This document shows positions 402 to 26,277 of a stretch of DNA of 36,039 nucleotides, one piece after another; position 1 is the stretch's first letter, and each line of letters opens with the position of its first letter. The stretch lies in IMG/VR virus record IMGVR_UViG_3300025168_016169, positions 1 through 36,039 of that record. One strand, written 5' to 3'. The notes beneath the pieces were generated by a model that ran no database searches, was not told the origin of the DNA, and saw only the letters and a program-made list of their open reading frames with translations. A program made the position numbers and the translations under genes. The stretch comes from a virus.

Positions 402-989
402 TTATCCAGCTATACTAGATATAAATGCTTTTACTTCACCTCCTTTAACAGCAGTTAAAGCAGCTTCTAATGTAGTCAAAGATAAGTTTTTAGCTTGAAG
501 TGCTTTTACAGCAGTTGCTCCTGAAATTACTAAGAATGTAGCTACTATAACATGAAATATAGCACTTGATATTTTATCAGCTTTAGCTTTATCTTTAATA
601 AATTTACTTACTATTCCTTTAATTGGAGCCATGTATAAATGATGTAAATCATCTGCTATACCTCCTAATTTTACCATCCATTTTTGGTATTCACTTTCAT
701 CTGTTGGCTTTTTACCTAAAACTTTTCTTACAGTATTACCTGCGGCTTTACCAAACTTAGCAACTAATCCCATTATAGCAGGAAGAGCAAGAGCAATACC
801 TGCTACTGTTAAAAGACCTTCATTTTGAGTTTTAGATTTTTTTTCTAATTCATCATCTAATGCTTTTAAAACACTACTCATTTCGTCTTTTAAATCATTT
901 ACTACTGCTTCTTCTTTAGCATCTTCTTCTTCACTTAAGATATTAACAATTTCTTCCTTAATAAGTTGTTTAAGTTTTAATTGTTTCAT
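402..989 (-). CDS. Tagged virion-type protein with two hydrophobic helices
   Basis: A 195-residue protein of unknown function. Residues 4-18 form an amphipathic tag (LKLKQLIKEEIVNIL) ending in I-K-E, similar to other proteins in this region. A charged, probably coiled-coil stretch follows (about 20-55), then a hydrophobic helix at about 59-78 (LLTVAGIALALPAIMGLVAK) and another at about 144-163 (FHVIVATFLVISGATAV). The start ATG overlaps the upstream stop as ATGA. It is the last gene before the terminator. The tag suggests head packaging and the helices suggest membrane contact, for example during DNA entry. A holin is possible but the long soluble parts argue against it. No family recognised with certainty. 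Confidence 0.7.
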   Translation of the reverse strand: MKQLKLKQLIKEEIVNILSEEEDAKEEAVVNDLKDEMSSVLKALDDELEKKSKTQNEGLLTVAGIALALPAIMGLVAKFGKAAGNTVRKVLGKKPTDESEYQKWMVKLGGIADDLHHLYMAPIKGIVSKFIKDKAKADKISSAIFHVIVATFLVISGATAVKALQAKNLSLTTLEAALTAVKGGEVKAFISSIAG

Positions 990-1246
990 TTTTTATATAT
1001 TTTTAATCTTAATTTATTATCTCCTTTTATAACACGATGAAAATGGTGTCTTGGTATAAATATAGGATCATTTAATGAAGTTGGCAATTCATTATCAAGT
1101 TGTATCTTCCAATTTGTTTCTCCAAGGATTTCTAAAGTTCGATCTTCATCATCACGATGCCATAACAATTCTATTGGATCTATATTTTCAGAAAATTCAC
1201 GAATAATATAGGAATCTGTAACTTTTATATCAGTGTAAGGTTTCAA
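986..1246 (-). CDS. Small cupin-like protein (TTG start)
   Basis: An 86-residue protein. Its second half has the proline-histidine pattern of a short cupin/RmlC-type beta-barrel: WHRDDEDR at about 29-36, then PIFIPRHHFHRVIKG at about 61-75. Similar small proteins are common in T4-like marine phages. No ATG exists in the frame, so the start is TTG at 1246, overlapping the upstream stop as TTGA; this points to translational coupling. The histidines could bind a metal, but no catalytic role can be assigned. Confidence 0.68.
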   Translation of the reverse strand: MKPYTDIKVTDSYIIREFSENIDPIELLWHRDDEDRTLEILGETNWKIQLDNELPTSLNDPIFIPRHHFHRVIKGDNKLRLKIYKK

Positions 1247-1677
1247 GACTTCTTTTTATATTGTGCTTTTTTAGTATTTTTTACAAACTGTTTACCTTTT
1301 TTACCTCCTCTAACTTTTTTAGCTACAGTTGATTTTCTTTCAGCTTTAGTTAAAGATTGTGCTTTAGCTTTAGGTAAACAACGAGTTGCAGCTTTACCTT
1401 TTTTCATTGTACCACAAGCTCCTGTTATATTACCTGAGGTATTGATACGTACCCATTTTTCTTTTTTAAACCAATCACGTAAAGATTCTTTAATTACATT
1501 ACGTATTTGTTCTTCTTTTAAACCTTTCCAAATAGATCCTTTTCTACATCTAACTACAGCACCTGATTTATAAGCAGAAGGTTTATCAAATTTACGATCA
1601 GCAATACGTAAACATCTGTCTCTCTTACTCTTTTTTTCAGTAAGAACTTCTTTAATTATTTTTTCTAATCTACCCAT
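1243..1677 (-). CDS. Basic two-module virion-type protein with N-terminal I-K-E tag
   Basis: The 144-residue protein starts at the ATG at 1677, which forms a TAATG overlap with the upstream stop; an ATG two codons earlier is less likely. It has three parts: a tag (MGRLEKIIKEVLTE, residues 1-14); a first module around residues 20-52 with two cysteines (22 and 44); and a second module from about 70 with cysteines 88 and 100 followed by a very basic tail (KKVRGGKKGKQF). The second module resembles a conserved phage domain I remember as DUF6321. An internal VIKESLRDWF (61-70) repeats the tag pattern exactly at the joint. The charge suggests nucleic-acid contact. Function unknown. Confidence 0.75.
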   Translation of the reverse strand: MGRLEKIIKEVLTEKKSKRDRCLRIADRKFDKPSAYKSGAVVRCRKGSIWKGLKEEQIRNVIKESLRDWFKKEKWVRINTSGNITGACGTMKKGKAATRCLPKAKAQSLTKAERKSTVAKKVRGGKKGKQFVKNTKKAQYKKKS

Positions 1678-3323
1678 TACCAAAACCCACTAAAGGATGA
1701 TTTTAAACCTAACAATTTAGCATAGCGAGGTAGTCTACAAGACCAATATCCTGCTTTTGTTCTATCTTTCTTTTGTGCACATTTATGTCTAGCGGCAAAT
1801 GCTCGTCTTGCTTTAGGATTATTAATTTTTGCTTTTAATCCACCAGAACCAAATGAAATTTTTTTTACTTTTTTAGTTTTAGGATCTCTAACATAAACAT
1901 AATATGCTTTAGAACCACCACGTTTTGGTTTTCCTATGGGTGGGTCCTTTTTCTTTTTCTTTTTAGCTTCTTGAAGAGAAAAATTTGATACTGATTTATA
2001 CCACTTTATTAGCTCACCATAAGTCATATCTAATGCTGGGTATTGGGGATTACTTTCAAGTTTAGCCAATTCTTTAGGATATTTTTTTAACATTTTTCTA
2101 ATAGCTTCTAATCTATATAAACCTTCTCCATCTCCATCCCATGTTCTTCTATCTATACCATAACTATAAGGCCCAGTGTATATGTTATCATCATCTTCCC
2201 AATCATCTTCTTCTTCCCAATCATCTTCCCAATCCAAATCTTCTGATTCATTCATAGATTTTCTATTTAAAAACTGTTGGAATCTTCTATTAACTTCTTG
2301 ATCTATAGATTTTTTTGTCCAACCTTTACCTGGAGAATTTTGGGCTATTTTTTCTACTTCTTTTCGAATTTTGTCTAAATCTTCTGATTCATTAACTGAT
2401 CTATCGATTACATACTCTTTATCCAATAAGTCGTCAGAGCTTGTATGCAAATGACGCTGGAGGTTTTCTTGGGCTTGGATATAAAGTTTATTTTGGGCTT
2501 TATTAATTCCTAAAGCCTCTACATGCCATTTATCACCATGTTTCATTTTGACATACTTTTCAGCAGCTGCGTAATCTTCTTTGGTTGGTTTAGTATCAAC
2601 AGCTTGACCAAATATTCTTTGAGCTTCTTTATATTCCCTGTCAATAATACGTTTCCAATCAATTTTTTCAATCCCCCAATCTAAATCTTCTGATTCATTC
2701 ATTAATCCTTTAGAAAACATTATAAAAGGATAATAAGCTCTATCATCATCATAATCTCTTTCATACTCAAAATTAGAAAGATCAGCATTTACTTTAAATC
2801 CTTTACTTTCAATAAAATCAACCATGTCATCAAACTCTTCATAAATATCTCCTTTGATTAATATAGATAATTTTTGATCACCAATTAATGAAGTTCTTAC
2901 ATTAAATTCTTTTTCAAATTCATTTTGTAATGTTTTTGGATCTACATTTTCATTTAACATAGGTAAATCTAAAGGTACTTTTTCACCTTCATACATTCCA
3001 TAATTACCTAAGTCAGTTTCTGATAGAATTTCTTTATCATCTTCATTTACATGAATAATTTCACGTAAATATAAATAACGTGCTTCTTGCCATAAATTAA
3101 GGAAAGATTCGGAACCATAACGAAATGTGTTTTCGGTTAGTGGGAGTTTATTTTGCACATGATATTGCAGATTTTCCGATAATATCATTTTAGGGGCTTT
3201 GCTTTCATTTAATAAGATACCTTCATTACCTACATTATCACAAGTATTGCAACCACAATTGCAATCTTTCTTTTTAGGTTGAGTAGATAATGCTTCTTTT
3301 ATTAAATTTGTTAAACGTGACAT
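1677..3323 (-). CDS. Modular tagged virion polyprotein-like protein with NESEDLD repeats
   Basis: A 548-residue protein built as a chain of short modules. It begins with MSRLTNLIKEAL (1-12), then a cysteine cluster CNCGCNTC (21-28). Joints of the form L/V/M-N-E lie at 38-40, 92-94, 123-125, 208-210, 310-312 and 357-359, and NESEDLD occurs three times (209-215, 311-317, 358-364). A D/E/W-rich stretch occupies about 359-380. The C-terminal domain (about 471-548) is basic and ends in an ARHKC...GYWSCR motif that I recall from other T4-like phages. The next gene starts in a TAATG overlap. I infer a head-packaged precursor that may be cut at the N-E joints; no enzyme activity is recognised. Confidence 0.75.
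   Translation of the reverse strand: MSRLTNLIKEALSTQPKKKDCNCGCNTCDNVGNEGILLNESKAPKMILSENLQYHVQNKLPLTENTFRYGSESFLNLWQEARYLYLREIIHVNEDDKEILSETDLGNYGMYEGEKVPLDLPMLNENVDPKTLQNEFEKEFNVRTSLIGDQKLSILIKGDIYEEFDDMVDFIESKGFKVNADLSNFEYERDYDDDRAYYPFIMFSKGLMNESEDLDWGIEKIDWKRIIDREYKEAQRIFGQAVDTKPTKEDYAAAEKYVKMKHGDKWHVEALGINKAQNKLYIQAQENLQRHLHTSSDDLLDKEYVIDRSVNESEDLDKIRKEVEKIAQNSPGKGWTKKSIDQEVNRRFQQFLNRKSMNESEDLDWEDDWEEEDDWEDDDNIYTGPYSYGIDRRTWDGDGEGLYRLEAIRKMLKKYPKELAKLESNPQYPALDMTYGELIKWYKSVSNFSLQEAKKKKKKDPPIGKPKRGGSKAYYVYVRDPKTKKVKKISFGSGGLKAKINNPKARRAFAARHKCAQKKDRTKAGYWSCRLPRYAKLLGLKSSFSGFW
2232..2699 (-). repeat. Three dispersed NESEDLD-coding repeats
   Basis: The heptapeptide NESEDLD is encoded at 2679-2699, 2373-2393 and 2232-2252 by nearly identical 21-base stretches. 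Each copy follows a hydrophobic residue (M, V, M), giving [M/V]-N-E-S-E-D-L-D, and each sits between modules of different sequence. The repeats look like duplicated linkers rather than repeats within a domain. Confidence 0.85.
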
Positions 3324-3325
3324 AT

Positions 3326-3335
3326 TAATAAATAT
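3326..3335 (-). promoter_or_regulatory. ATATTTATTA element upstream of the 548-residue protein gene
   Basis: The coding strand reads ATATTTATTA ending only 2 bases before the ATG at 3323. It is a one-base variant of the element at 7066, 24422, 27045, 31126 and 34121. The very short spacing would give a leaderless or missing 5' end, so this copy is a weaker promoter candidate. Confidence 0.3.
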
Positions 3336-3338
3336 TAT

Positions 3339-4502
3339 TTAAATATTAAATTTTTCTTTCCAAACAGGATTAATTATCCAATTATTATCTTCCATAATAT
3401 AACAAGCAGAATTTCCTCCTTTACCATATCCTCTAAGATGTAAACCTATATCAGCATCTAACTCATTAATAGGTTTTAAGTTATTTATAAAATTTTCAAT
3501 ACTATTAGGAACTTCTCCTTTAAAATAACAATTAGCTGTAGCTTCAGAGTCTTTACCAAATTTATTTGCGCCTGAGTATGCTTCATATTCTTGTTCAGGG
3601 GTTAATTCATAATTTGAGTTATAGGGTTTGGTTTTAATAAACCAATGCATATAAGGACTTCTTGTTCCTATTTTATTATCTTGTAATTTTTGATAAAAAT
3701 CAAGAATTATTTTTTTGCTATCTTCTAACCCTAATATTTGTTCAAATCTTGCAGGTAACATCCAGTTTTCTACAAAAGTAGCATTAGCAGCCTTTAAACT
3801 AATTTTTAAATCACCCCCATAAGGACTAATAGGTTTATTTAGTTTAACAAATACATCTGTTTTTGGATTACCTTTACCTTTAAATGTTGGGGCCCCAAGT
3901 CTTTCTATTTCATATTGTTTTTTGTCATAACTAAACTCATAATTTTTTCCAGATGTGTCAAATAAAAGTTTTACTATATCTTTTTCTTGTCCATGTCCTG
4001 CTTTAAAATTATTAAAAACATTTTCTTTAGTTTTACTATCTGGGTTAACATCTATAAATTCTATTTGTTTTCCTGATGGTTTTAAGATGTCTGTTAATCT
4101 AATTAAATATTCTTTATCTTTATAATTTATGCGTGTATAATATGAGGATCCCTTTTTAGTTAAATTAGATTCTTTATTATCTATAATTTTAAATTTTTCA
4201 CCTTTACCTAAATTGTCTACTATTTCAAAAGATTTAGGGTCAAATATAGGTGCATCCCTTTCAGTTTCAAAATCCATAGTATCAGAGCTATCATTTAACT
4301 CTATATATTTATAAAAAGCACCTGTTGGTTGACTATAATTTGTAGTTCTACCCCCTAAATTAGCTTCTTTTAAAGAAATAAATATTCCTCTTTCTTTTAA
4401 TAAACTTTCTAACATTAAAATATCCTGTTCATTTTCTATGTCAGGATATCCCTTAGGAAATTTGTATGCTATACCATGTAAAAATTTATCTAAAACGTCC
4501 AT
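3339..4502 (-). CDS. Possible PD-(D/E)XK-like nuclease in the virion-protein cluster
   Basis: A 387-residue protein. The middle resembles a restriction-endonuclease fold: GHGQEKDI (E173), PKTDVFVKL (D216) and DLKISLKAAN (S235-L236-K237). The spacing and the strand-strand-helix look fit a PD-(D/E)XK core with serine in place of the usual acidic residue before x-K. The N-terminus carries two L-K-E segments (ESLLKE 32-37, ISLKE 42-46) like the tags and joints of its neighbours. Its start is in a TAATG overlap with the gene at 4502-4975. It could be an injected or packaged nuclease; an inactive relative or unrelated fold remains possible. Confidence 0.5.
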   Translation of the reverse strand: MDVLDKFLHGIAYKFPKGYPDIENEQDILMLESLLKERGIFISLKEANLGGRTTNYSQPTGAFYKYIELNDSSDTMDFETERDAPIFDPKSFEIVDNLGKGEKFKIIDNKESNLTKKGSSYYTRINYKDKEYLIRLTDILKPSGKQIEFIDVNPDSKTKENVFNNFKAGHGQEKDIVKLLFDTSGKNYEFSYDKKQYEIERLGAPTFKGKGNPKTDVFVKLNKPISPYGGDLKISLKAANATFVENWMLPARFEQILGLEDSKKIILDFYQKLQDNKIGTRSPYMHWFIKTKPYNSNYELTPEQEYEAYSGANKFGKDSEATANCYFKGEVPNSIENFINNLKPINELDADIGLHLRGYGKGGNSACYIMEDNNWIINPVWKEKFNI

Positions 4503-4975
4503 TATGTTTCTGGTTCTTCAATTGGTGTTTCTTCTGTTGTAGGTTCTTCAGGTGGTGCTTCAGCACCTGCTTCAGGTTCAAATCCTTCTCCATCTTCTTC
4601 TCCTTCTTCAGTTTTAACTCCATATCTTAATATACGAGCTATTGACTCAGCAGCACGTTGTTCTTCTGGTAGATTTAATAAATAATATTTTTTGCCTTCA
4701 ACTTGGGCAATAAAACTTCTTTTGCCATAAATTAAATAAAATAGTTGATCATTTTTTAAATTAATTCGAAAAGTAGAAGGACGTGGTGCAACCCAATCAA
4801 TTGAAGCTACAAAACTATCATACTCAGGAGTTAAAAGATCTACAATAATAGCTTTTAATTCAGGAAATTTGGTTAATTCATCATATTGAACAGCTTCCTC
4901 AGGTGTAATAGTTCGATTAGAATATACCTGTTTAATTAAAATTTTTAATTTACTTTGTAGTGCTTCTCTAGTCAT
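4502..4975 (-). CDS. Small virion-type protein with acidic C-terminal tail
   Basis: A 157-residue protein. It starts with an amphipathic helix (ALQSKLKILIKQVY, 5-18) like the local tag but with Q in place of the final E. A globular middle follows (about 55-120: STFRINLKNDQLFYLI, then a strand-rich KRSFIAQVEGKKYYLLNLP). The last 35 residues are almost all E, P, T, A and G and should be disordered. Similar proteins occur in T4-like marine phages as putative structural proteins. Both ends are in TAATG overlaps, so it is translationally coupled to its neighbours. Function unknown. Confidence 0.65.
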   Translation of the reverse strand: MTREALQSKLKILIKQVYSNRTITPEEAVQYDELTKFPELKAIIVDLLTPEYDSFVASIDWVAPRPSTFRINLKNDQLFYLIYGKRSFIAQVEGKKYYLLNLPEEQRAAESIARILRYGVKTEEGEEDGEGFEPEAGAEAPPEEPTTEETPIEEPET

Positions 4976-6165
4976 TATCTAAGTTTAGAAAATATAGTTT
5001 CTGCTAATTTTTTTGATGGAGATACTAGTCTTCCATATGCTGATTGATCAGCAGATATTTTTAATGCACTATCTCCTGTAATAGCAGCTGATAAATAATC
5101 AATACTTTTATCTAATTCTTCAACATCTGCTTCAGTATCATCTTGACTTTTATCTACTTTTTCAGTAGCTTTAAGTATATCAAATAAAATAGGTTGTAAT
5201 TTTTCTATAGATTTTACTGTTTCAGGGTTTTCACTTAATTTTTTTACAACAGTTTCAACTACTTTTTTTTTGTTTTTTGCAGATAAATGACCCATAGATG
5301 GTTTAAGTTTTTCATTAATTACTCCTTCCTCACTTGCAACGTCTACCATTGCATCAATTTGAGGTTCTTTCATTTCAAAATCAAGATAGTGTTTTGCAGA
5401 AACTAACATACTTTTTGACTTAGTAATTTTTGTTTGCCACCAATGTGGAAAATCTACTTCACCATCCATTTCATCAAATTTATCAACCATTTTATAAAGC
5501 TCCATAGCATATTTTCCAATACGATATAAATCAGATTTTAACATTCCTGGTTCATCATCTGTATGGCCTATGTCAAGATCTTCATCTAATCCTTTAGCTT
5601 TTTTAAATCTTTCATAATCTGCTTGTCTTTTAGCATCTTCTTCTTTTCTTCTCTTTTCTAATGCCTTTCGATTTGCTCCAAAAGAATCTCCTAAATCTTT
5701 CATTAGTTGTCTCTCTTCATCACTCATCTTATCTTCTTCAGATATAGGTTCATCAGAAATTTCTTCAGATGGTGTTTCAAGTTCTTTTTGCATTGATTTT
5801 TCAATAGCAGCTCCTCTTTTCTTTTCATAATCAGAAAGCTTACCATCTTTATTTAAATCAGCTTTTTTAGGATTTTTTAAGGCATCTTTAACCATTTCTT
5901 TAAGTCTAATTAACATTGGACCAGCTGGTGTGTTTCCAATTTCTCCATCTACTCCATATCCACAAGTCCCTTCTTCGATTTCTTTTTCCATAGGTTTTTC
6001 TTCTGCTTGTTTTTTAACTTGTTTAACAGCTTTAGCGTATGCTACTTTTTCGGCTTCAGAGCCATATCTTTTAACCAATTTGTCTCTCCGAGTTCCAACT
6101 ATAGACAAAAAATTGTCATATATCTTTTTAGATTCCTCAGGAGAGAACGCTTCGGTTAGTTTCAT
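4975..6165 (-). CDS. Helical virion-type protein with one EF-hand loop
   Basis: A 396-residue, highly charged, mostly helical protein. Residues 103-114 (DLNKDGKLSDYE) are a perfect single EF-hand calcium loop: D1, N3, D5, G6, L8 and E12. A conserved aromatic segment lies in the middle (GHTDDEPGML from about 201, then EMDGEVDFPHWWQTKI), which I recall from other T4-like environmental phages. The C-terminal third is alpha-helical. The N-terminus (MKLTEAF) gives an early L-T-E. The setting among core-like and histone-like genes suggests a head-internal or structural protein, but the role is unknown. Confidence 0.65.
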   Translation of the reverse strand: MKLTEAFSPEESKKIYDNFLSIVGTRRDKLVKRYGSEAEKVAYAKAVKQVKKQAEEKPMEKEIEEGTCGYGVDGEIGNTPAGPMLIRLKEMVKDALKNPKKADLNKDGKLSDYEKKRGAAIEKSMQKELETPSEEISDEPISEEDKMSDEERQLMKDLGDSFGANRKALEKRRKEEDAKRQADYERFKKAKGLDEDLDIGHTDDEPGMLKSDLYRIGKYAMELYKMVDKFDEMDGEVDFPHWWQTKITKSKSMLVSAKHYLDFEMKEPQIDAMVDVASEEGVINEKLKPSMGHLSAKNKKKVVETVVKKLSENPETVKSIEKLQPILFDILKATEKVDKSQDDTEADVEELDKSIDYLSAAITGDSALKISADQSAYGRLVSPSKKLAETIFSKLR

Positions 6166-6168
6166 TTA

Positions 6169-6339
6169 TTAAGCTTTATCTTCAGCAGTTGATGTTCTTT
6201 TAAAATCAGCTGCTAGTTTTTTAATTTCATTAGCTGCTCTACGTGCACGCGTACGAGCTACTTTTGTTGTTTTTTCGTTTTCAGTTTCTAAAGTAACTAA
6301 TTGTTCTTTAACTGCTTCAATAATTTCATTTAAGTTCAT
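6169..6339 (-). CDS. Small Hc1/histone H1-like DNA-binding protein
   Basis: A 56-residue gene with ATG at 6339 and TAA at 6169. After a helical start (MNLNEIIEAVKEQL) comes TKVARTRARRAANEIKKLA, the basic 'TRARxAxxEIKKLA' pattern of Bacteroidota histone H1-like (Hc1 family) proteins. The usual family length is about 55-65 residues, so it looks complete. It should bind and compact DNA. It lies between the acidic core-like protein (6368) and the EF-hand protein (4975), four bases before the latter's ATG. This fits a DNA-packing role in the head or on host DNA. The family match is by remembered motif only. Confidence 0.65.
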   Translation of the reverse strand: MNLNEIIEAVKEQLVTLETENEKTTKVARTRARRAANEIKKLAADFKRTSTAEDKA

Positions 6340-6367
6340 AGTTTTTATTTTTTATAGATTTTATTAT

Positions 6368-7051
6368 TTATTCTTCTCCTCCAATGTATTCACCTACAAA
6401 GAATTTTAAGGTGTTTCCTATTTGAGTAGTAAGTTTTTCATTATCCATTGCTTTGGATACTTTTAAAGCTGAAATTAAATGATCCATTAGATCACCTTCA
6501 TCACCTTCCATATCAGCAGCAATATCTTCAATTCCACCTCCAGTTTCAGTTTCTTCTTCTGCTTCAACTTCAACCTCTTCTTCAGGTGCTTCTTCAGGTG
6601 CTTCTTCTTCTTTTTCTTCTTCTTCTTCTTCTTCCTTAGCTTCTTCTAAAGATTCTTCCTCACTTAATTCGTTAATAATCATTTCACGAATTTTTGATTT
6701 AAGGTCTTCTTTTTCATCTTTCATACCATCAAGATAACCTTCTTCTTCAGCATCAGTACGGGCATCTTCTTTTAAAATATAATCACCATGTCTATGTTTT
6801 TCAACAGATGACATTTTTTTAAGAACACCCATTAAATCTTTTTTTTCTGCTCCTAATTTTTTAGCAGCAGCTACTAATGGTTTTAAACCAGCAGCTCCAC
6901 CTTCTTTTTTAAGTACAGATTTAATAGTTTTTTCTAATTTGCTTTTATCAAATTTTTCTTTTTTTTCTTTTGCTTCTTTTAAAAAAGGATTTGAATTTTC
7001 AATGGTTTTATTATCCGTTAGAAATTTCTTTAAATTAAAGTTATCTTTCAT
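6368..7051 (-). CDS. Acidic prohead-core-like protein
   Basis: A 227-residue protein with a basic, helical first half (KSKLEKTIKSVLKKEGG; KPLVAAAKKLGAEKKDLMGVLKK) and a strongly acidic centre (about 125-172, runs of up to seven E). A C-terminal amphipathic domain follows (about 185-227, MDHLISALKVSKAMDNEKL...). It has several I/L-x-E sites, for example LKE at 24-26 and LSE at 128-130. T4 scaffold and core proteins have this low-complexity acidic, helical character and are cut by the prohead protease. I infer a core or internal head protein; there is no direct sequence match. A promoter-like element precedes it at 7066. Confidence 0.6.
   Translation of the reverse strand: MKDNFNLKKFLTDNKTIENSNPFLKEAKEKKEKFDKSKLEKTIKSVLKKEGGAAGLKPLVAAAKKLGAEKKDLMGVLKKMSSVEKHRHGDYILKEDARTDAEEEGYLDGMKDEKEDLKSKIREMIINELSEEESLEEAKEEEEEEEKEEEAPEEAPEEEVEVEAEEETETGGGIEDIAADMEGDEGDLMDHLISALKVSKAMDNEKLTTQIGNTLKFFVGEYIGGEE
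6550..6660 (-). repeat. Glu-coding GAA/GAG low-complexity tract
   Basis: A purine-rich microsatellite-like run on the coding strand (CTT repeats on the plus strand) encodes the poly-Glu centre of the acidic protein. Such tracts vary in length by slippage. The repeat keeps frame with codons throughout. Confidence 0.85.
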
Positions 7052-7065
7052 TTTAAAATATTTTG

Positions 7066-7075
7066 TTATAAATAT
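7066..7075 (-). promoter_or_regulatory. ATATTTATAA promoter-like element
   Basis: The coding strand reads ATATTTATAA, 14 bases before the ATG at 7051, in a 56-base gap between genes. It matches identical elements at 24422, 27045, 31126 and 34121. The proposed role is a late-promoter -10 element for the gp55-like sigma factor. Confidence 0.5.
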
Positions 7076-7107
7076 ATAAAGCTAATACATACTACAGGAA
7101 AGTAATA

Positions 7108-7680
7108 TTATTTTTTTAAATTTTTAAAGTATTCTATACCTTCTTCCATTGCTGCTTTAGCACGTTTTTTATCAATTCCACCTACCCATTTTTGGATATC
7201 ACCAGCTTCAGTAACATAATTATTATTACTTTCAGAAAGCATATCTTTCATAAAGTTTTTATATTCTTCAATATTAATATCTATTTCTTTATTAAATGTA
7301 GTTTTAATATATTCTTCCCATTTACCTTCAGTTTTTAATTTAGTTTCAGTAACAGCTCTACAATTAACACATTCTCCATAAGCTTTATAATAATAAGGAT
7401 CTAACTGCCCATCCATGTTTTCTTTACATTTAGGACAAAATATAGGAACAGCTACTTTTTTAAATTTATCTAATTTAGTAACATTTTCTTTTATACCATC
7501 ACGTATAGTCCATTTTTTTCCATTTTCTTCCCAAATATCACCTTCTTTATAGGAAATTGATTCTTCACCATTATAACCTATACCAGTAGTTATTTTTTTA
7601 TCTGTTTTACCTTTTATAAGGTTTCGAAGACGTTCTACATCTCGTTTTTGAAATTGTTTTTTTAAAACTGAATCTGACAT
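7108..7680 (-). CDS. Zinc-ribbon protein conserved in T4-like phages
   Basis: A 190-residue protein. It starts with a basic helix (LKKQFQKRDVERLRNLIKG), then a small beta region (EGDIWEENGKKWTIRDGIK), then a zinc ribbon with CPKC at about 82-85 and CVNC at about 98-101. The C-terminus reads VTEAGDIQKWVGGIDKKRA. The whole arrangement matches a family I remember from many T4-like environmental phages, with no assigned function. The I/L-x-E joint motif is absent from its first residues. The start is in a TAATG overlap with the HAD gene. It may bind nucleic acid through the ribbon. Confidence 0.72.
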   Translation of the reverse strand: MSDSVLKKQFQKRDVERLRNLIKGKTDKKITTGIGYNGEESISYKEGDIWEENGKKWTIRDGIKENVTKLDKFKKVAVPIFCPKCKENMDGQLDPYYYKAYGECVNCRAVTETKLKTEGKWEEYIKTTFNKEIDINIEEYKNFMKDMLSESNNNYVTEAGDIQKWVGGIDKKRAKAAMEEGIEYFKNLKK

Positions 7681-8225
7681 TATAATCCTAATTGTTTTAG
7701 TTGTTTAATTGAATCATCTGCTGATATGTATAAAATACCTGTTCCACCATTAGCATTCCAAGTGTCAATTGTACTTGCTTTATCGTCTATAAGTATATCT
7801 GTTTTAGTAAGAGACTGTTTTACTTGGTGTTTTTGTTTTGCAGGTTTAAAATTTACTTTTGGTGTATCAGGAAATAAATCAGAATGGATTTTACGTAACC
7901 ATATCATTTTTCCTAATCTAGATTGTTTTTTAATAGAAGGAGCAGTTAACATTTCATAGTCGTATTGTGAAACATAATCTATTAACTTTTTAGCTCCAGA
8001 CATTACAGGTATACCTGCCCAAAATTTTACTTTATTTTCTTCATCTATAAAGTCCCAAAATTTATTCATACCATATTTATCTCTATATTCATCTGGGGTT
8101 AGACCTGATAGGTCAATAAATCTTTGATCAAAATCAGCTATTACACCATCCATATCTAAATAGATAGTATACGCAGATACATCGTTTTCTTTAATTAGTT
8201 TATATAAATCAAATAAATTTGCCAT
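7680..8225 (-). CDS. HAD-family 5'-nucleotidase-like phosphatase with L-I-K-E tag
   Basis: A 181-residue protein from the ATG at 8225, two bases after the upstream stop; a longer frame from 8270 would run into the upstream gene. It starts with MANLFDLYKLIKENDV, an amphipathic tag ending L-I-K-E (10-13). HAD motif I follows: IYLDMDGVIADF with nucleophile D24 and acid D26. Motif II/III candidates are LTAPS and the late LIDDKASTIDTW. The size and sequence resemble 5'(3')-deoxyribonucleotidases. It should dephosphorylate a nucleotide or another small phosphate. The tag raises the possibility that it is carried in the head. Fold certain, substrate inferred. Confidence 0.78.
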   Translation of the reverse strand: MANLFDLYKLIKENDVSAYTIYLDMDGVIADFDQRFIDLSGLTPDEYRDKYGMNKFWDFIDEENKVKFWAGIPVMSGAKKLIDYVSQYDYEMLTAPSIKKQSRLGKMIWLRKIHSDLFPDTPKVNFKPAKQKHQVKQSLTKTDILIDDKASTIDTWNANGGTGILYISADDSIKQLKQLGL

Positions 8226-8227
8226 AA

Positions 8228-11035
8228 TTAAAATTGAGGTAAACTTAATGCCTTTCTTCTGCTTCTCCACAGATCTAGAATTTTTTCTTTTTCTTCAGGG
8301 GTGATTTCTTGGGCATCTAAATAAGTATTTATTACATCTCCAAAAGATCTTTTTTCTTTTTTAGCTCTAAAATACATTCCTTGTAAATTAGCATCTACTT
8401 CTTTTGGTAATTGAAAATATTCAGCTTGAGGTATAAGTTTAGCTTTAACTAAAGCTCTTATAAGAGAATCATCTTCAAATTTTTCTTTTTTTGTTTTTGA
8501 ATCTCCTGATTGTGTAATATGTTCAATTTCATGTCTTACAACATCTTTAAGATTCATAGATATTTCTTCCCAAAATTCAGGTAACATTTTAGGATCAATT
8601 TCAAAAGTTACTTCTAAATATCCTGGGAGTTTTTCTTTGGTTTTAGGATTAATTCGAGCTTCATCAGAACCACCATCTACTTTAAGTTGTTTTGATCCAG
8701 GTGTGAATTGTATTTGAGCTTTTACATCAATACCTCTTGGAGGGAAATCATAAGTATCTTCATATGTTGATAATTTATCTCCTTCTTCATAATCTTCTTT
8801 CCAATTTGAAAATATATCTCTTGAAATTTGATTTGATAAAGTATCATAACGGCCTTCTTTTAATTGAGGAGTATTATCATGATTACATTTATGACACATA
8901 TATAAATCATCTCCACCATCTTTTATTTTCCATTCCCATCCACAATTATCACATTTAATTTTATCTCCAATAATTATTTCTTCTAAACTAGCTAATTCTC
9001 TAGCATATTGGTTTAAACCAAAAGGATCTTTACCTAAATTTTTATTAAAACCGTGTTTATGTTTATATGGTTTTTCTTTTTCATTTAAACTAGTAACTTC
9101 TTCTCCATCAATACCATCTGTATAATTTCTAAAAAGCATATTACCTTTTGTGTATGCTTCTCTTTCTATATCATTTAAATAATCATCTTCCATTGTATTA
9201 GTAGTACTAATATCTTTTAATCTACCTTCTAAATTTTGAATATGATGAATCATTTCATGAGCATATGATCTTACTACATCTTTAGGATGTCTACCTTTAG
9301 TATATAATACTATTATCATATTATTAGGATCATAATATGCAGTTTTACCTAAAAAATCTTTAGCATTTTCTTCATCATTATGTTTAAATATTATTTTAGG
9401 TAAGGGTTTAATATTCATACCCTTTTTTAACATATGTTTAGTTAAATCTTTAACTTGTTGTTTATAATCTATATAATTAGAATATGTAGTATTTTCATTT
9501 AAAGGTTTGTATGCTGAACCAAAAGGAGATGATTTACCTTTATGTTTAGCTTGTGCTTTTGGATCAATATTTTCTTTTTCTAGTTCAGGGTGGAATTTCA
9601 TAGAAACTTCTTTAGCATCAGGTTTAATTGATTCACCATCTACTAATACTTCAACGGGATATATTTTAGCATCATTCCCATACCAATAATTCATTTTATA
9701 TCCACCTTCTTTAGTTAACTCAACAATTAATCCTCTATCATAATCTTCACTTTCAGCTTGTAAATATATTTTTTTACCCCTTGGTAAAACTAAAGATGTC
9801 TTTTCTAAAATATCTTCATTTACTTTTTGTTTTTTCATTCTTTCTGTTTTCTTCTTAGAGGCTTCTTTACGTTTTTTAATATATTCAAAAGCAGAACGTA
9901 ACTTAGCTTTCTTTTGAGGGTCTTTAGTTCTACTTAAAGCAGCTCTTACTCTTTGATGTATTAAATTAATAATTTGAGATTGACGAGCATGAGATTTAGA
10001 TTTAAATGAAGTTTTATTTAAAGTATTTATTATATCTTGTCTTGTAGAAAACTTAACTTTAACAGTGTCTGATGGGTCTTCATCTGTGTATAAACGTCTT
10101 TTTGATCCTTTGGGTTTTTTTCCTGTGCCTTTTTTAGGGTCAGCTTCATTTATTATTTCATATAAAAATGAAGTAGGAATTAATGATGATTTTAATGCAG
10201 GTATTCTAGATAAAAGTAAATAAATAAACCCACCTGGTAAGATAGAAGCTGCTGTAAATCCAGCTAATTTTAAAGTATTTTTTAATTGATTGCCAATTTC
10301 AATTTTTTCACTTTTAGTTAAAGTTTCACCAGTTCTTACAGCATGGGCTAATTTCCCAAATGCCTTTTGTATATCTTTACTTTGAGTTTTTAATTTTTCA
10401 ATAAAATTATCAAATTTACCTTTTAAATCTTTAAAATAGTCTTCTATTTTTCCTTCATCTAATGGTTGAGATGATAAAATGTTCCAAATTTCATCTTGAT
10501 TAACATTATTAGGCAGAAAACTATTAAAAGCTTCTTTATTATTATTTATTAATGCTTTACGAGCATTAGTTCCACTCATACCTCCGTCAGGAGTAATAAT
10601 AGTTTTTAAATTAAGATTAGGATACTTATTTATAGATATAGATCTTGATGATATATCTTGTAAATCATCTTCTCTACCTTCTCTAGATCCTATAATCCAA
10701 TATAAAGAATCTTCAGGATTATCTTTAGCATATCTATAAATATCTCCAATTGGAGAAACAGATTTTTCTATTCTAACTGGTTTGTCAAGTAATTGTTTAT
10801 AATATTCATCCCAAATTTTAAATGATTGATCTTGAGTAATACCATCTCTTACTTTACTACCAACAAAAATTATAATATTATCTATTTCAGGGTTGTTTTT
10901 TATAGCTTTTTGAAGAACTTCTAAATGTCCTGCTGTTGGTGGTTTAAAACCACCTCCAAATAAAGCAGTAACTTCTTTACCTCCTATACTTTCGGGTAAA
11001 AAATCTTTAATAAGTGATTTAGTTAAGGAATCCAT
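8228..11035 (-). CDS. Multidomain polyprotein-like protein: nucleotidyltransferase, LETM1-like segment, two HExxH metalloprotease modules
   Basis: A 935-residue protein with at least six parts. (1) Tag MDSLTKSLIKDFL (1-13). (2) Cytidylyltransferase/NMNAT-type nucleotidyltransferase: GGGFKPPTAGH (27-37) and MSGTNAR (153-159). (3) LETM1-like hydrophobic segment, about 195-292 (AASILPGGFIYLLL). (4) Very basic helical module, 300-402. (5) Beta region, 412-510. (6) Metalloprotease with HEMIH (593-597). (7) Zinc ribbon C695/C698/C714/C717. (8) Second HExxH, HEIEH (835-839). Joints carry LDE 192-194, INE 295-297, VNE 405-407, LNE 512-514, LNE 650-652 and LKE 725-727. Overlaps the kinase gene by 17 bases. 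The domains are visible; processing is inferred. Confidence 0.78.
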   Translation of the reverse strand: MDSLTKSLIKDFLPESIGGKEVTALFGGGFKPPTAGHLEVLQKAIKNNPEIDNIIIFVGSKVRDGITQDQSFKIWDEYYKQLLDKPVRIEKSVSPIGDIYRYAKDNPEDSLYWIIGSREGREDDLQDISSRSISINKYPNLNLKTIITPDGGMSGTNARKALINNNKEAFNSFLPNNVNQDEIWNILSSQPLDEGKIEDYFKDLKGKFDNFIEKLKTQSKDIQKAFGKLAHAVRTGETLTKSEKIEIGNQLKNTLKLAGFTAASILPGGFIYLLLSRIPALKSSLIPTSFLYEIINEADPKKGTGKKPKGSKRRLYTDEDPSDTVKVKFSTRQDIINTLNKTSFKSKSHARQSQIINLIHQRVRAALSRTKDPQKKAKLRSAFEYIKKRKEASKKKTERMKKQKVNEDILEKTSLVLPRGKKIYLQAESEDYDRGLIVELTKEGGYKMNYWYGNDAKIYPVEVLVDGESIKPDAKEVSMKFHPELEKENIDPKAQAKHKGKSSPFGSAYKPLNENTTYSNYIDYKQQVKDLTKHMLKKGMNIKPLPKIIFKHNDEENAKDFLGKTAYYDPNNMIIVLYTKGRHPKDVVRSYAHEMIHHIQNLEGRLKDISTTNTMEDDYLNDIEREAYTKGNMLFRNYTDGIDGEEVTSLNEKEKPYKHKHGFNKNLGKDPFGLNQYARELASLEEIIIGDKIKCDNCGWEWKIKDGGDDLYMCHKCNHDNTPQLKEGRYDTLSNQISRDIFSNWKEDYEEGDKLSTYEDTYDFPPRGIDVKAQIQFTPGSKQLKVDGGSDEARINPKTKEKLPGYLEVTFEIDPKMLPEFWEEISMNLKDVVRHEIEHITQSGDSKTKKEKFEDDSLIRALVKAKLIPQAEYFQLPKEVDANLQGMYFRAKKEKRSFGDVINTYLDAQEITPEEKEKILDLWRSRRKALSLPQF

Positions 11036-11780
11036 CTATTTTACTCTTGATTTGGTTTTGAGGGGTAAATTCTGGTAGGGATGAAAGTAGTTGTTTTATA
11101 GAATTTTCTAATTCTTTTTGTTCTTTAGCTTTTTGCAATTTTTCTTCATCACTATATTCTCTAGCTGCCGTTACTTGGTCAAAATATTTTTTTATTTCTT
11201 GTTCATTGTAAGTTTTATCAGCACCTTCGGGATCATTATTTACTAATATAAAATTATTTCCAAACATATTATTAAAAACATCAACATTTTTATTTACTTT
11301 TTCCCAAGTACGAACTATAATTGAAGGTCGAAGTGATCTATCTCCTGCTTCTCCTCTAGATCTATTACGTTCTAAAGATACAAGTGGTGAAACATATATC
11401 ATTACCATCATTGTATTATACCCTAAATCTTCTAATTGTGTTTTCTTTTTTAATATAGGATTTGATGCACCACCAGTACCATCGATTATAATACTTTCTC
11501 CTTCTTTTTGAGCAGATTGAAGTTTAGCTGTTGTTTCTTTACGAGCTCTACTCATTAATTTAGATGATTGAGATAATTCATCTGAAGTAAAGGTTGATTG
11601 GGGTTTATCTAATCCTGCCTGTTTAAGTAACTCTTCATATGTATCATCTACATTAATTACTTTTAAGTTAGGAATATTATTTTTAATAAAGGTTGATTTA
11701 CCACTTCCTGCGGGGCCTGCTAAAAAGATAGCTTTAGGACCATTTTGGATTTCTTTTAATAATTTTATTAGGCTTATCAT
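11019..11780 (-). CDS. P-loop kinase, polynucleotide-kinase/zeta-toxin-like, with L-L-K-E tag
   Basis: A 253-residue protein. After the tag MISLIKLLKEIQ (1-12) comes a Walker A GPAGSGKST (22-30), then VINVDDTYEE, a Walker B-like strand SIIIDGTGG at about 96-104, and an arginine-rich lid (ERNRSRGEAGDRSLRPS, about 135-151). This is the AAA_33 / polynucleotide kinase / zeta-toxin pattern, so it should transfer ATP phosphate to a nucleic acid end or small molecule. The C-terminal 50 residues are helical and charged. Similar tagged kinases occur in T4-like environmental phages. It lies just upstream of the nucleotidyltransferase-protease gene. The substrate cannot be read from the sequence. Confidence 0.78.
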   Translation of the reverse strand: MISLIKLLKEIQNGPKAIFLAGPAGSGKSTFIKNNIPNLKVINVDDTYEELLKQAGLDKPQSTFTSDELSQSSKLMSRARKETTAKLQSAQKEGESIIIDGTGGASNPILKKKTQLEDLGYNTMMVMIYVSPLVSLERNRSRGEAGDRSLRPSIIVRTWEKVNKNVDVFNNMFGNNFILVNNDPEGADKTYNEQEIKKYFDQVTAAREYSDEEKLQKAKEQKELENSIKQLLSSLPEFTPQNQIKSKIDGFLN

Positions 11781-24435: not shown

Positions 24436-26277
24436 CTATAAAGGAACTACTCTACCTTTAATATCTTCATTAGGATATCTAAGTTCAAATACACTAGGAT
24501 CTAAAGAAGGATAAATTACTTGATTTTGAGTAGCAGCATCTATATCATAAGCAAAACTAGAATAGTTTCCTCCTACTTTATTAGAAAGTATAACATTTTT
24601 TACGGTTTGTACTCCTTTTACTTTATCTAATAAAATAAAAACGTCTTTGATTAAAATAGGTTGGTTAAATTGAAAATTTTGAATATTAAAGTAACCTATT
24701 AATTCATTTATACAACTTATTAATACTTCACTATTATTATGATTAGGACTAACTATTATTTCAAAATCTATCCCAAAATTAACTATATATCCATCTTTTA
24801 TTTCAATACTATCTCCAATCATCCTATACTCAGATAAATAAGTTCTTAAATTATTTTTTAAAGTTGATGAAGCATAATTTAAATTTCCTTGAGAATCTTG
24901 AGATAAAACATATAAACATAAAGTTTCAATTGTAGAAATTTGGTTATCTGTTAATTTAGGTTTTTCAATATATGCTTTAGTAATTGATCCAAAATCTGAA
25001 GGCATACTTAAAGCTCTTATCAAATAATCATTAGGGGTAACAGAACGATGTTGTGAAAAAGAAGCTGCCATTGTATTTTGTTTAATTTCTTCTAAAGTAT
25101 CCCCATCACCACCACCTGTTGCTGGGACTGGATTGTTAATACTAAGAGAATCTATAACATAATTAGCAGTTGTTGAGTTTAAAGAATTAAAATTTGAAAA
25201 TCTTGCTGTTACAGTTGATAAATTAGTAATTGAGTTTGCCGTTACATTTGAACTAAGTCCCCCCCCAGTTAAGTATCTTACAGTTAAAGTAGTATTTGTA
25301 GGAGAAATACCATAAGTATTAGTAAATAAAAAATTAGTTGGGGAATAAGCTACTGAAAGTTTGTCTTTTTTAAATGGGAGCCCAATTCCAACATTATTAG
25401 GGTTAGGAATAATTTCTTCTACTATATCATTTGGAGATCCTGCTCCAAATTGAATTTGAAGATTATTTAAAGAAGTAAATCTAGTAGCAAATCTATAAGG
25501 TGCTTTTTTTAATTTTAATAAATAAGGAACATCTTTTCCACTATTAGGGTCATTAATATTAGTATTTTTAATTGAATTAAAAACTGTTTCTTGTCCTAAA
25601 CAATCTACTTCTTCCCAAATATTACCCTCTGAATCAGTTATGTCTAATATTTTTATAATATTAGATTCATTTATACTAACAGTTTGAAAAGGAGATGGGT
25701 CTCCAAAACTAAATTCTTGAGATTGAATAGTTGAAGATATTAATTTTCGTGTTTTTTTTAATAAATAGTATAGTGGGATTCCATTAGAAGTTTGATATAC
25801 AGTAGTTATTGTTGGATCTTGAGAACTAGAAACTGAAAAATCTACTAGATCTTCCATTATAAATCCAACATTATCTATAGTTGAAAATGTAGAGTTTTCT
25901 GGGATTTTAATAGAATAGTCAAAATCAGGAAAATAATTACCACTTATATTTTTTGAAGGTACTTGTTGAAAAATTTCAATTTCTGTTTGAGCTGTTGAAA
26001 CAACTTTTGGTTTATACCCAAACATATAGGCTAATTCAAAAATATTATTTGCTTGTTGGGCATATTGAATAAAATTTTCTTGAAATTGATTATCAAGATA
26101 GTAACTTAAAACATCTCCAACATAAGCAGCTTGTTCAATAATTAACATCCCTGGAGAGGATGGGGAAAAGTCTTGATAAGTATTAGGGAAATATGTTTTA
26201 GTGTATTCTATTAAACGCGATCTAAAACTATTAAAGTCACGATTTAAATATTTTATATCTCTATTTATTTCAGCCAT
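24436..26277 (-). CDS. gp6: Baseplate wedge protein gp6 (baseplate J-like)
   Basis: A 613-residue protein with the N-terminus typical of T4 gp6: IKYLNRDFNSFRSRLIEYTKT, then SPSSPGMLIIEQAAYVGDVLSYY, then ANNIFELAYMFGYKPK. A baseplate J-like middle and C-terminal part follows (SQHRSVTPNDYLIRAL near 405-420). It forms the baseplate wedge ring in myoviruses. Length is close to the T4 protein (660). It follows the gp25-like gene at 3 bases, the conserved T4-type order. Family match is strong. Confidence 0.9.
   Translation of the reverse strand: MAEINRDIKYLNRDFNSFRSRLIEYTKTYFPNTYQDFSPSSPGMLIIEQAAYVGDVLSYYLDNQFQENFIQYAQQANNIFELAYMFGYKPKVVSTAQTEIEIFQQVPSKNISGNYFPDFDYSIKIPENSTFSTIDNVGFIMEDLVDFSVSSSQDPTITTVYQTSNGIPLYYLLKKTRKLISSTIQSQEFSFGDPSPFQTVSINESNIIKILDITDSEGNIWEEVDCLGQETVFNSIKNTNINDPNSGKDVPYLLKLKKAPYRFATRFTSLNNLQIQFGAGSPNDIVEEIIPNPNNVGIGLPFKKDKLSVAYSPTNFLFTNTYGISPTNTTLTVRYLTGGGLSSNVTANSITNLSTVTARFSNFNSLNSTTANYVIDSLSINNPVPATGGGDGDTLEEIKQNTMAASFSQHRSVTPNDYLIRALSMPSDFGSITKAYIEKPKLTDNQISTIETLCLYVLSQDSQGNLNYASSTLKNNLRTYLSEYRMIGDSIEIKDGYIVNFGIDFEIIVSPNHNNSEVLISCINELIGYFNIQNFQFNQPILIKDVFILLDKVKGVQTVKNVILSNKVGGNYSSFAYDIDAATQNQVIYPSLDPSVFELRYPNEDIKGRVVPL

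Follow-up and report, generated by a model that had tools for sequence, protein, structure and literature searches.

A phage open reading frame with prohead-protease-type motifs at its module joints, probably encoding a head-cargo polyprotein

The stretch of DNA analysed here (the window) is the entire IMG/VR record IMGVR_UViG_3300025168_016169 (36,039 bases, 28% GC), in which baseplate wedge, primase and exonuclease genes were found among the 10 open reading frames (ORFs) scanned. An initial annotation of the window had proposed a 935-residue chain at positions 8228-11035 whose module boundaries coincide with phi-x-E triplets. The ORF exists; it lies on the minus strand, and the plus strand there is full of stops. 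We conclude that it probably encodes a head-cargo polyprotein of a T4-like phage, which would be tagged once and cut at its phi-x-E joints in the prohead. T4 gp21 cuts after L/I-x-E (accessible part of PMC9026906). The chain is probably cut in the head because its joints carry the signal of such a protease and because related viruses reshuffle the pieces at these points.

A capsid-targeting-like helix, MDSLTKSLIKDFLPE, would carry the entire chain into the prohead core, where an S77 (gp21-type) protease would cut after the glutamate at the phi-x-E joints. The products would be the tag, the adenylyltransferase, three pieces of helical membrane-like, basic and beta character, a zincin, a short peptide, the zinc ribbon and another zincin. 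These products would remain in the head, would probably be ejected together with the DNA and would act on the host. The parts of the chain are listed here, with a caret for the predicted cut and the basis of each assignment in brackets.

8228..11035, minus strand: multi-module ORF, 935 residues, predicted head-cargo polyprotein (ORF and relatives)
10991..11035, minus strand: N-terminal tag MDSLTKSLIKDFLPE^S, residues 1-15, capsid-targeting-like helix ending in phi-x-E (model, N-terminal motif count)
10454..10990, minus strand: M1, residues 16-194, nucleotidyltransferase of the nicotinate/phosphopantetheine adenylyltransferase type; joint PLDE-194^G (Foldseek, PHROG)
10145..10453, minus strand: M2, residues 195-297, helical with hydrophobic segment; joint IINE-297^A (alignment, model)
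9815..10144, minus strand: M3, residues 298-407, basic helical; joint KVNE-407^D (alignment, model, tagged genes)
9494..9814, minus strand: M4, residues 408-514, predicted beta, low confidence throughout; joint PLNE-514^N (model, tagged genes)
9080..9493, minus strand: M5, residues 515-652, zincin-like, HEMIH at 593; joint SLNE-652^K (kept HExxH, model)
8978..9079, minus strand: short disordered unit, residues 653-686, ending GKDPFGLNQYARELASLEE^; joint SLEE-686^I (predicted disorder, breakpoint support 25)
8855..8977, minus strand: M6, residues 687-727, zinc ribbon with CDNC and CHKC; joint QLKE-727^G (kept CxxC and CxxC)
8231..8854, minus strand: M7, residues 728-935, second zincin-like module, HEIEH at 835, KEVDA at 878 (kept HExxH)

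The relatives used for comparison are 62 IMG/VR loci (L numbers; G numbers denote records) and the Flavobacterium phage immuto (four records). From 63 multi-module ORFs, including that of the window, 39 non-redundant proteins were kept for a breakpoint test; L001 and L012 were left out as copies (L012 is a copy of L003). The 39 proteins were compared by BLASTP, and the alignment ends, which were found without the motif, were taken as homology breakpoints. Before counting, high-scoring segment pairs (HSPs) shorter than 35 columns were removed, as were ends lying at most 12 residues from either terminus of a protein. A breakpoint needed at least three HSP ends in the main test and at least two in the test with control sets. 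The glutamate of [ILVM]xE, the form in which the motif was counted, was enriched 10.5-fold two residues after the alignment start and 7.1-fold at the alignment end. The motif lay within 3 residues of 125 of the 344 distinct breakpoints, as against 41.7 +/- 5.8 (maximum 60) in 500 rotations. Nine of ten control motifs showed no positive excess: eight lay between z -0.8 and 1.2, and [AGST]xE was depleted (34 vs 49.5, z -2.5). The tenth, [ILVM]xK, was slightly increased (74 vs 57.1, z 2.8). It is this test on which the case rests, because the module models of the linker test given below had been seeded with the cuts of the initial annotation.

A first control set, made of non-module ORFs, was enriched as well (130/372, null 48.8 +/- 6.0). 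Because the members with the strongest enrichment resembled, for the most part, tagged cargo-locus genes, this set was split by homology to known genes into tail/replication, cargo-locus and unclassified proteins. Tail and replication proteins of the same phages were hardly enriched (16/202, null 10.3 +/- 3.3, z 1.7), and thus the enrichment at breakpoints is no general artefact of alignment ends. The other cargo-locus genes were clearly enriched (108/266, null 49.3 +/- 5.7). The effect therefore extends past the polyprotein to neighbouring genes, and since other large genes carry phi-x-E at their breakpoints, the cargo locus looks like several polyproteins.

In the window protein, the six triplets named in the initial annotation are all where they had been reported (LDE 192-194, INE 295-297, VNE 405-407, LNE 512-514, LNE 650-652 and LKE 725-727, exact and numbered from the first residue). 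Their number speaks against the reading rather than for it. With 12 occurrences of [ILVM]xE, compared with 15.8 in shuffles (p=0.87), there is no excess, just as the annotation had expected of single sites in a protein of this length. Motif counts per protein were consequently dropped as evidence, and only the position of the motif can carry the argument. Breakpoint peaks were found at residues 21, 191, 296, 405, 521, 680 and 726, at distances of 6, 3, 1, 2, 7, 6 and 1 residues from a motif, respectively; all seven peaks were equally close to a motif in 2 of 935 rotations, the identity included. A motif stood within 3 residues of the centre in 5 of 13 breakpoint clusters (rotation mean 1.1; 5 was reached by 6 of 935 rotations), and within the cluster +/- 3 residues in 7 of the 13. 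The claimed coincidence of module boundaries and motif is thus borne out as placement beyond rotations, although the N-terminal tag and the joint at ASLEE-686 had been missed. The latter, directly before the zinc ribbon, has 25 HSP ends, whereas the joint at 652 is weaker with 6. As the peak at 680 exposes SLEE-686, the stretch from LNE-652 to LEE-686 is a short unit in its own right.

To describe the exchange of modules, profile models of the seven window modules and of fourteen modules from relatives were used; weak matches of the zinc-ribbon model (E above 1e-10) were dropped. Counting truncated and near-identical proteins but not L012, the 62 multi-module proteins show 41 module orders. 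M7 stands ahead of M3 in L027 and occurs as a tandem pair in L030; elsewhere modules are absent or guests are inserted. Over the Pfam cut-off, L023 and L046 each have an Fe/Mn superoxide dismutase (both domains) and plastocyanin as guests, L011 has plastocyanin and L008 has zeta toxin. L046 also has an acetyltransferase (GNAT) above two of three cut-offs. The matches to Pol-beta in L027 and to a HYD1-type ADP-ribosyltransferase (ART) in L047 (E 0.0058) lie below the Pfam cut-off. An NT5C nucleotidase is fused in L030 (PHROG match) and also in L004 and L013 (module models). The superoxide dismutase/plastocyanin-like domains are found at 3071-6832 of L023 and 1431-5660 of L046, and 10614-11270 of L043 is a separate tagged superoxide dismutase gene.

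Linkers of at most 60 residues contained the motif in 131 of 150 cases, equally long stretches inside modules in 20.5 +/- 3.9 (maximum 31, 300 trials). Among linkers longer than 60 residues it was present in 25 of 25. In each of the 11 distinct contexts of M7, phi-x-E stands immediately ahead of G[RV]YD; P2 is variable there, and P3 and P1 are conserved. Two short units, ASDPQAGTALPYGSGFAPVKE and NDPFGLNELARQFLKE, recur between phi-x-E sites in many relatives (e.g. L027, L018, L020), at differing positions like peptide modules.

The N-terminus shows the same pattern. Among 37 non-redundant proteins with a complete N-terminus, the window protein included, 31 carry phi-x-E within their first 20 residues (10.4 +/- 2.7 for internal 20-mers). 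The annotation had suggested looking in relatives for modules encoded as separate tagged genes, and several modules were indeed found to open separate genes behind a tag of 10-20 residues that ends in phi-x-E. M3 comes first in a tagged gene in L043 (MIKLVDILKEITE^GDPK) as well as in L039 and L044. M4 has its own tagged gene in L054 (MIKLTDILLKE^DGHG) and in L051. Superoxide dismutase is tagged in L043 (MINLIQLLTE^AKDT) and the zinc ribbon in L063 (MKTLIKNLLRE^AIIG). When a module was first in its gene (near-identical loci kept), a phi-x-E start was present for the zeta kinase in 51/51, NT5C in 42/43, M3 in 4/4, M4 in 3/3, superoxide dismutase in 1/1, M5 in 1/1, the M6 zinc ribbon in 2/3 and M1 in 26/50 cases. 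The low value of M1 arises because its model begins at residue 4, so that the cut of the tag lies inside the model. The 156-kb record G001, which belongs to the close relative L003, has the tag pattern in the first 20 residues of 26 of 214 genes (8.8 +/- 2.6 for internal 20-mers). At 97.7-102.5 kb this record contains a second cluster of small genes with the near-identical tags MKHSQLKKLIKE^ and M..FNLKKYLAE^, which probably encode further head cargo.

The records of 31 of the 63 loci, mostly longer contigs, were searched for the protease and the capsid protein. An S77 prohead protease was found over the cut-off in 10 records, which are exactly the 10 with a Gp23 capsid protein over the cut-off and include all six records of 148 kb or more; short sub-threshold matches were seen to S77 in G029 and to Gp23 in G014. 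In all 10 records the capsid propeptide contains V-x-E^ and the C-terminal region of the protease contains LNE^G or LNE^S, MNE^G, LKE^G, VKE^G or VRE^G. By analogy with T4 and SPN3US, these sites are presumably cut points. Asparagine or lysine at P2 was found in 119 of 215 joint motifs versus 47 of 222 non-joint motifs of the same proteins, and G, A, S or N at P1' in 93 versus 43. These preferences resemble the protease tail, but no exact probability is claimed for them, because the residue classes were chosen after seeing that tail and the sequences are related.

Two AlphaFold models were made (residues 1-516 and 515-935), with the alignment of the chain built as two collinear alignments of fragments ending at joints. 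Confident folds lie at about 21-190, 331-400, 524-642 (with dips) and 735-935 (with a dip at 844-851). Disordered joints had been proposed as a check. Six of the seven joints (297, 407, 514, 652, 686 and 727) are in or at most 1 residue from stretches with a predicted local distance difference test (pLDDT) value below 50, two of them bordering the poorly modelled M4; the same proximity holds for 22 of 74 of all glutamates. Residue 194 is not near such a stretch; the mean of its block is 60, and those of the flanking blocks are 91 and 76. Residues 643-691 are below 50. The tag, modelled for the window only, has a helix at 3-9 and then a weak stretch (mean pLDDT of residues 11-20: 62). The release of the modules by the prohead protease, as proposed earlier, is therefore supported by the separate tagged genes, the predicted disorder at most joints and the S77 protease of relatives; cleavage, packaging or virion retention, and ejection are inferred.

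Besides the motif count, a number of observations weigh against a polyprotein cut in this way. The S77 protease is absent from the 36-kb window record, and the literature searched held no proteomics on cleavage or virion presence. In 19 of the 150 short linkers there was no motif in the search window (several times the module model had overrun it), and the M3/M4 joint of some relatives reads TNE instead of phi-x-E. Even when the cluster +/- 3 residues is allowed, six of the 13 clusters of the window protein have no motif, and within 3 residues of the centre it is found in 5 of 13. The capsid propeptide sites show no preference for N/K at P2. The unclassified remainder of the control set was enriched too (45/115 vs 21.2 +/- 3.6); we tentatively read it as undetected cargo. 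Six of the 37 complete proteins, that of the cultured phage immuto included, lack phi-x-E over residues 1-20, and the tag excess of G003 is weak (14/192, internal 20-mers 8.1 +/- 2.4). The counts across relatives come from related sequences and lack phylogenetic independence. As to structure, M4 does not reach 60 anywhere, so that joints 407 and 514 can be judged from one side only; the low pLDDT at joints is in part an artefact, since alignment rows end there; and the low stretch of M7 at 844-851 has no joint.

It is unlikely that the chain stays uncut as a multidomain 'polyvalent' effector in which phi-x-E at the joints is the fossil end of capsid-targeting tags left by gene fusions. Whole tag-like stretches are kept before NT5C (VKYKLKKVMKE in L013, ARYKLKQVMKE in L030), and the accessible text of PMC5512222 describes the N4 virion RNA polymerase as packaged unprocessed and ArdC as transferred full-length. 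Fossils should decay, however. Ahead of M7 it is P2 that varies, with P3 and P1 conserved. Furthermore, the P2/P1' preferences are like those of the protease tail, and joints such as those before M7 have the triplet without a tag-like helix (judged by eye, uncounted). We regard it as improbable that the zincin modules M5 and M7, instead of the prohead protease, process the chain, even though both HExxH modules are kept in the family, few complete zincin-free chains were found, and autoprocessing by zincins was proposed for polyvalent proteins in the accessible part of Iyer et al. 2017 (PMC5512222). Sites of the joint type are also present in the capsid propeptide and in the C-terminal region of the S77 protease itself. 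Proteins without a recognised zincin have phi-x-E in 17 of 20 joints (complete ORFs: 4/5), which counts only mildly against self-processing; contig ends truncate the ORFs that contain 15 of the 20 joints, 13 of them with the motif, and these ORFs may go on to encode a zincin. Finally, that the loose phi-x-E occurs at the joints by chance, as acidic linkers would hold it regardless, is highly improbable given the rotation null with its control motifs, the tail/replication control and the null inside modules, although the 12 sites in 935 residues are no excess and the baseplate-wedge gene at 24436-26277 of the window, without any sign of being cargo, has 14 [ILVM]xE versus 6.7 expected.

With the head-cargo polyprotein as the preferred interpretation, it seems rather likely that this phage lineage builds its injected payload as cassettes, i.e. 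from one tag and interchangeable modules joined by prohead-protease sites, so that the cut site is at the same time the recombination joint. The modules would be adenylyltransferase, zincins, superoxide dismutase, cupredoxin, nucleotidase, kinase and acetyltransferase. To add an effector, flanking phi-x-E sites would then suffice; a promoter, start or tag of its own would not be required. If the polyprotein interpretation is true, a tailed DNA phage uses a polyprotein strategy with one targeting signal for many effectors, which would explain how huge ORFs annotated as 'nicotinamide mononucleotide adenylyltransferase' (immuto gp088) should be read. Tag and phi-x-E joints would provide a sequence rule for predicting the head payload from DNA, and among the unexpected payloads to which this rule would point are superoxide dismutase and plastocyanin. 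The interpretation can be tested in the cultured phage immuto on Flavobacterium sp. LMO8, whose S77 protease is gp070 and whose 907-residue gp088 would be cut after TLAE-286, VVKE-496 and VMAE-702.

By analogy, the closest concepts appear to be T4 capsid-targeting sequence (CTS)/gp21 processing for the mode of working and polyvalent proteins for the architecture. Like the T4 internal head proteins (IPI-III, Alt), the chain has an N-terminal tag of 10-20 residues ending in phi-x-E and is presumed host-takeover cargo, and S77 protease and Gp23 capsid are present in genomes of relatives. A helix ending in a cut site, as in the T4 CTS, was modelled for the window only. Unlike here, where one tag would serve many modules, the T4 internal proteins are described in the accessible sources as one mature protein per gene (Alt being cut at both ends). 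As in S77 substrates, phi-x-E stands at the boundaries of the predicted mature products, apart from the TNE joints. The T4 core proteins gp22, gp67 and gp68 share multiple gp21 cuts per chain, but here folded enzymes would be released. In the giant phages phiKZ and SPN3US, head proteins including ejection proteins are cut after glutamate by a gp21 relative; in the accessible part of the SPN3US work, however, 13 of 14 sites remove N-terminal propeptides and no release of several enzymes from one chain is described. Polyvalent proteins (Iyer et al. 2017, accessible text of PMC5512222) resemble the chain in their many unrelated enzyme domains, zincins, varied architectures and presumed delivery with the DNA. 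Their range of 2-15 domains of disparate activity in one chain includes the protein studied here. Compared with the 131-domain set of that study, the window zincins match by HExxH only, the ART-like and Pol-beta matches of relatives stay below the Pfam cut-off, and the GNAT of L046 exceeds two of three cut-offs. The accessible text proposes processing through fused zincins or assemblin-like domains and describes no cut-site joint, whereas the site type at the joints here is that of a prohead protease distinct from the chain. Among the matches listed from full-text literature, which held few subscription papers, a multi-effector polyprotein cut by a prohead protease was not described.

The functional labels of the modules fared differently. 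The nucleotidyltransferase label of M1 is supported by a Foldseek match to 8aih, a nicotinate/phosphopantetheine adenylyltransferase fold (E 2.7e-5), and by a match to the cytidyltransferase PHROG 3041 (E 1.9e-11). For M2 there was no Pfam match at E 0.1, and its LETM1-like identity was dropped. A low-confidence model is what stands behind the beta region of M4. The zinc ribbon of M6 holds, with CxxC and CxxC kept in 46/46 members examined. The two HExxH motifs are present and kept (M5 in 45/45 family members examined, M7 in 12/12). The best fold match of the M5-M7 half in Foldseek was no better than E 0.9, and the metalloprotease labels thus rest on HExxH and its conservation.

The phage, read here as T4-like, probably infects Bacteroidota/Flavobacteriia, the host being guessed from immuto. 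A peptide-pattern scan of one genome per species from 84,980 bacterial and archaeal species confirmed no relative and hence gave no prophage or host clue. In the phage collection outside immuto there were two distant M3-like matches (E 5e-6 and 5e-5), both to separate hypothetical genes of Pelagibacter phages, one M5-like match in Synechococcus phage B23 (E 2e-4) and none to the zinc ribbon module.

Two tagged genes flank the polyprotein gene.

11019..11780, minus strand: tagged neighbour MISLIKLLKE^, zeta-toxin-like/P-loop kinase (homologue fused upstream of M1 in L008)
7680..8225, minus strand: tagged neighbour MANLFDLYKLIKE^, NT5C-type 5'-nucleotidase, likely with an internal ATG start (homologue fused after M7 in L004, L013 and L030)

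The longest NT5C ORF (GTG at 8270) overlaps the polyprotein; with translation from the ATG at 8225, the product has the tag MANLFDLYKLIKE and, like close homologues, 181 residues. The minus-strand genes at 402-7680 and their homologues have phi-x-E at breakpoints as well, and in 1677-3323 phi-N-E^SEDLD occurs three times.

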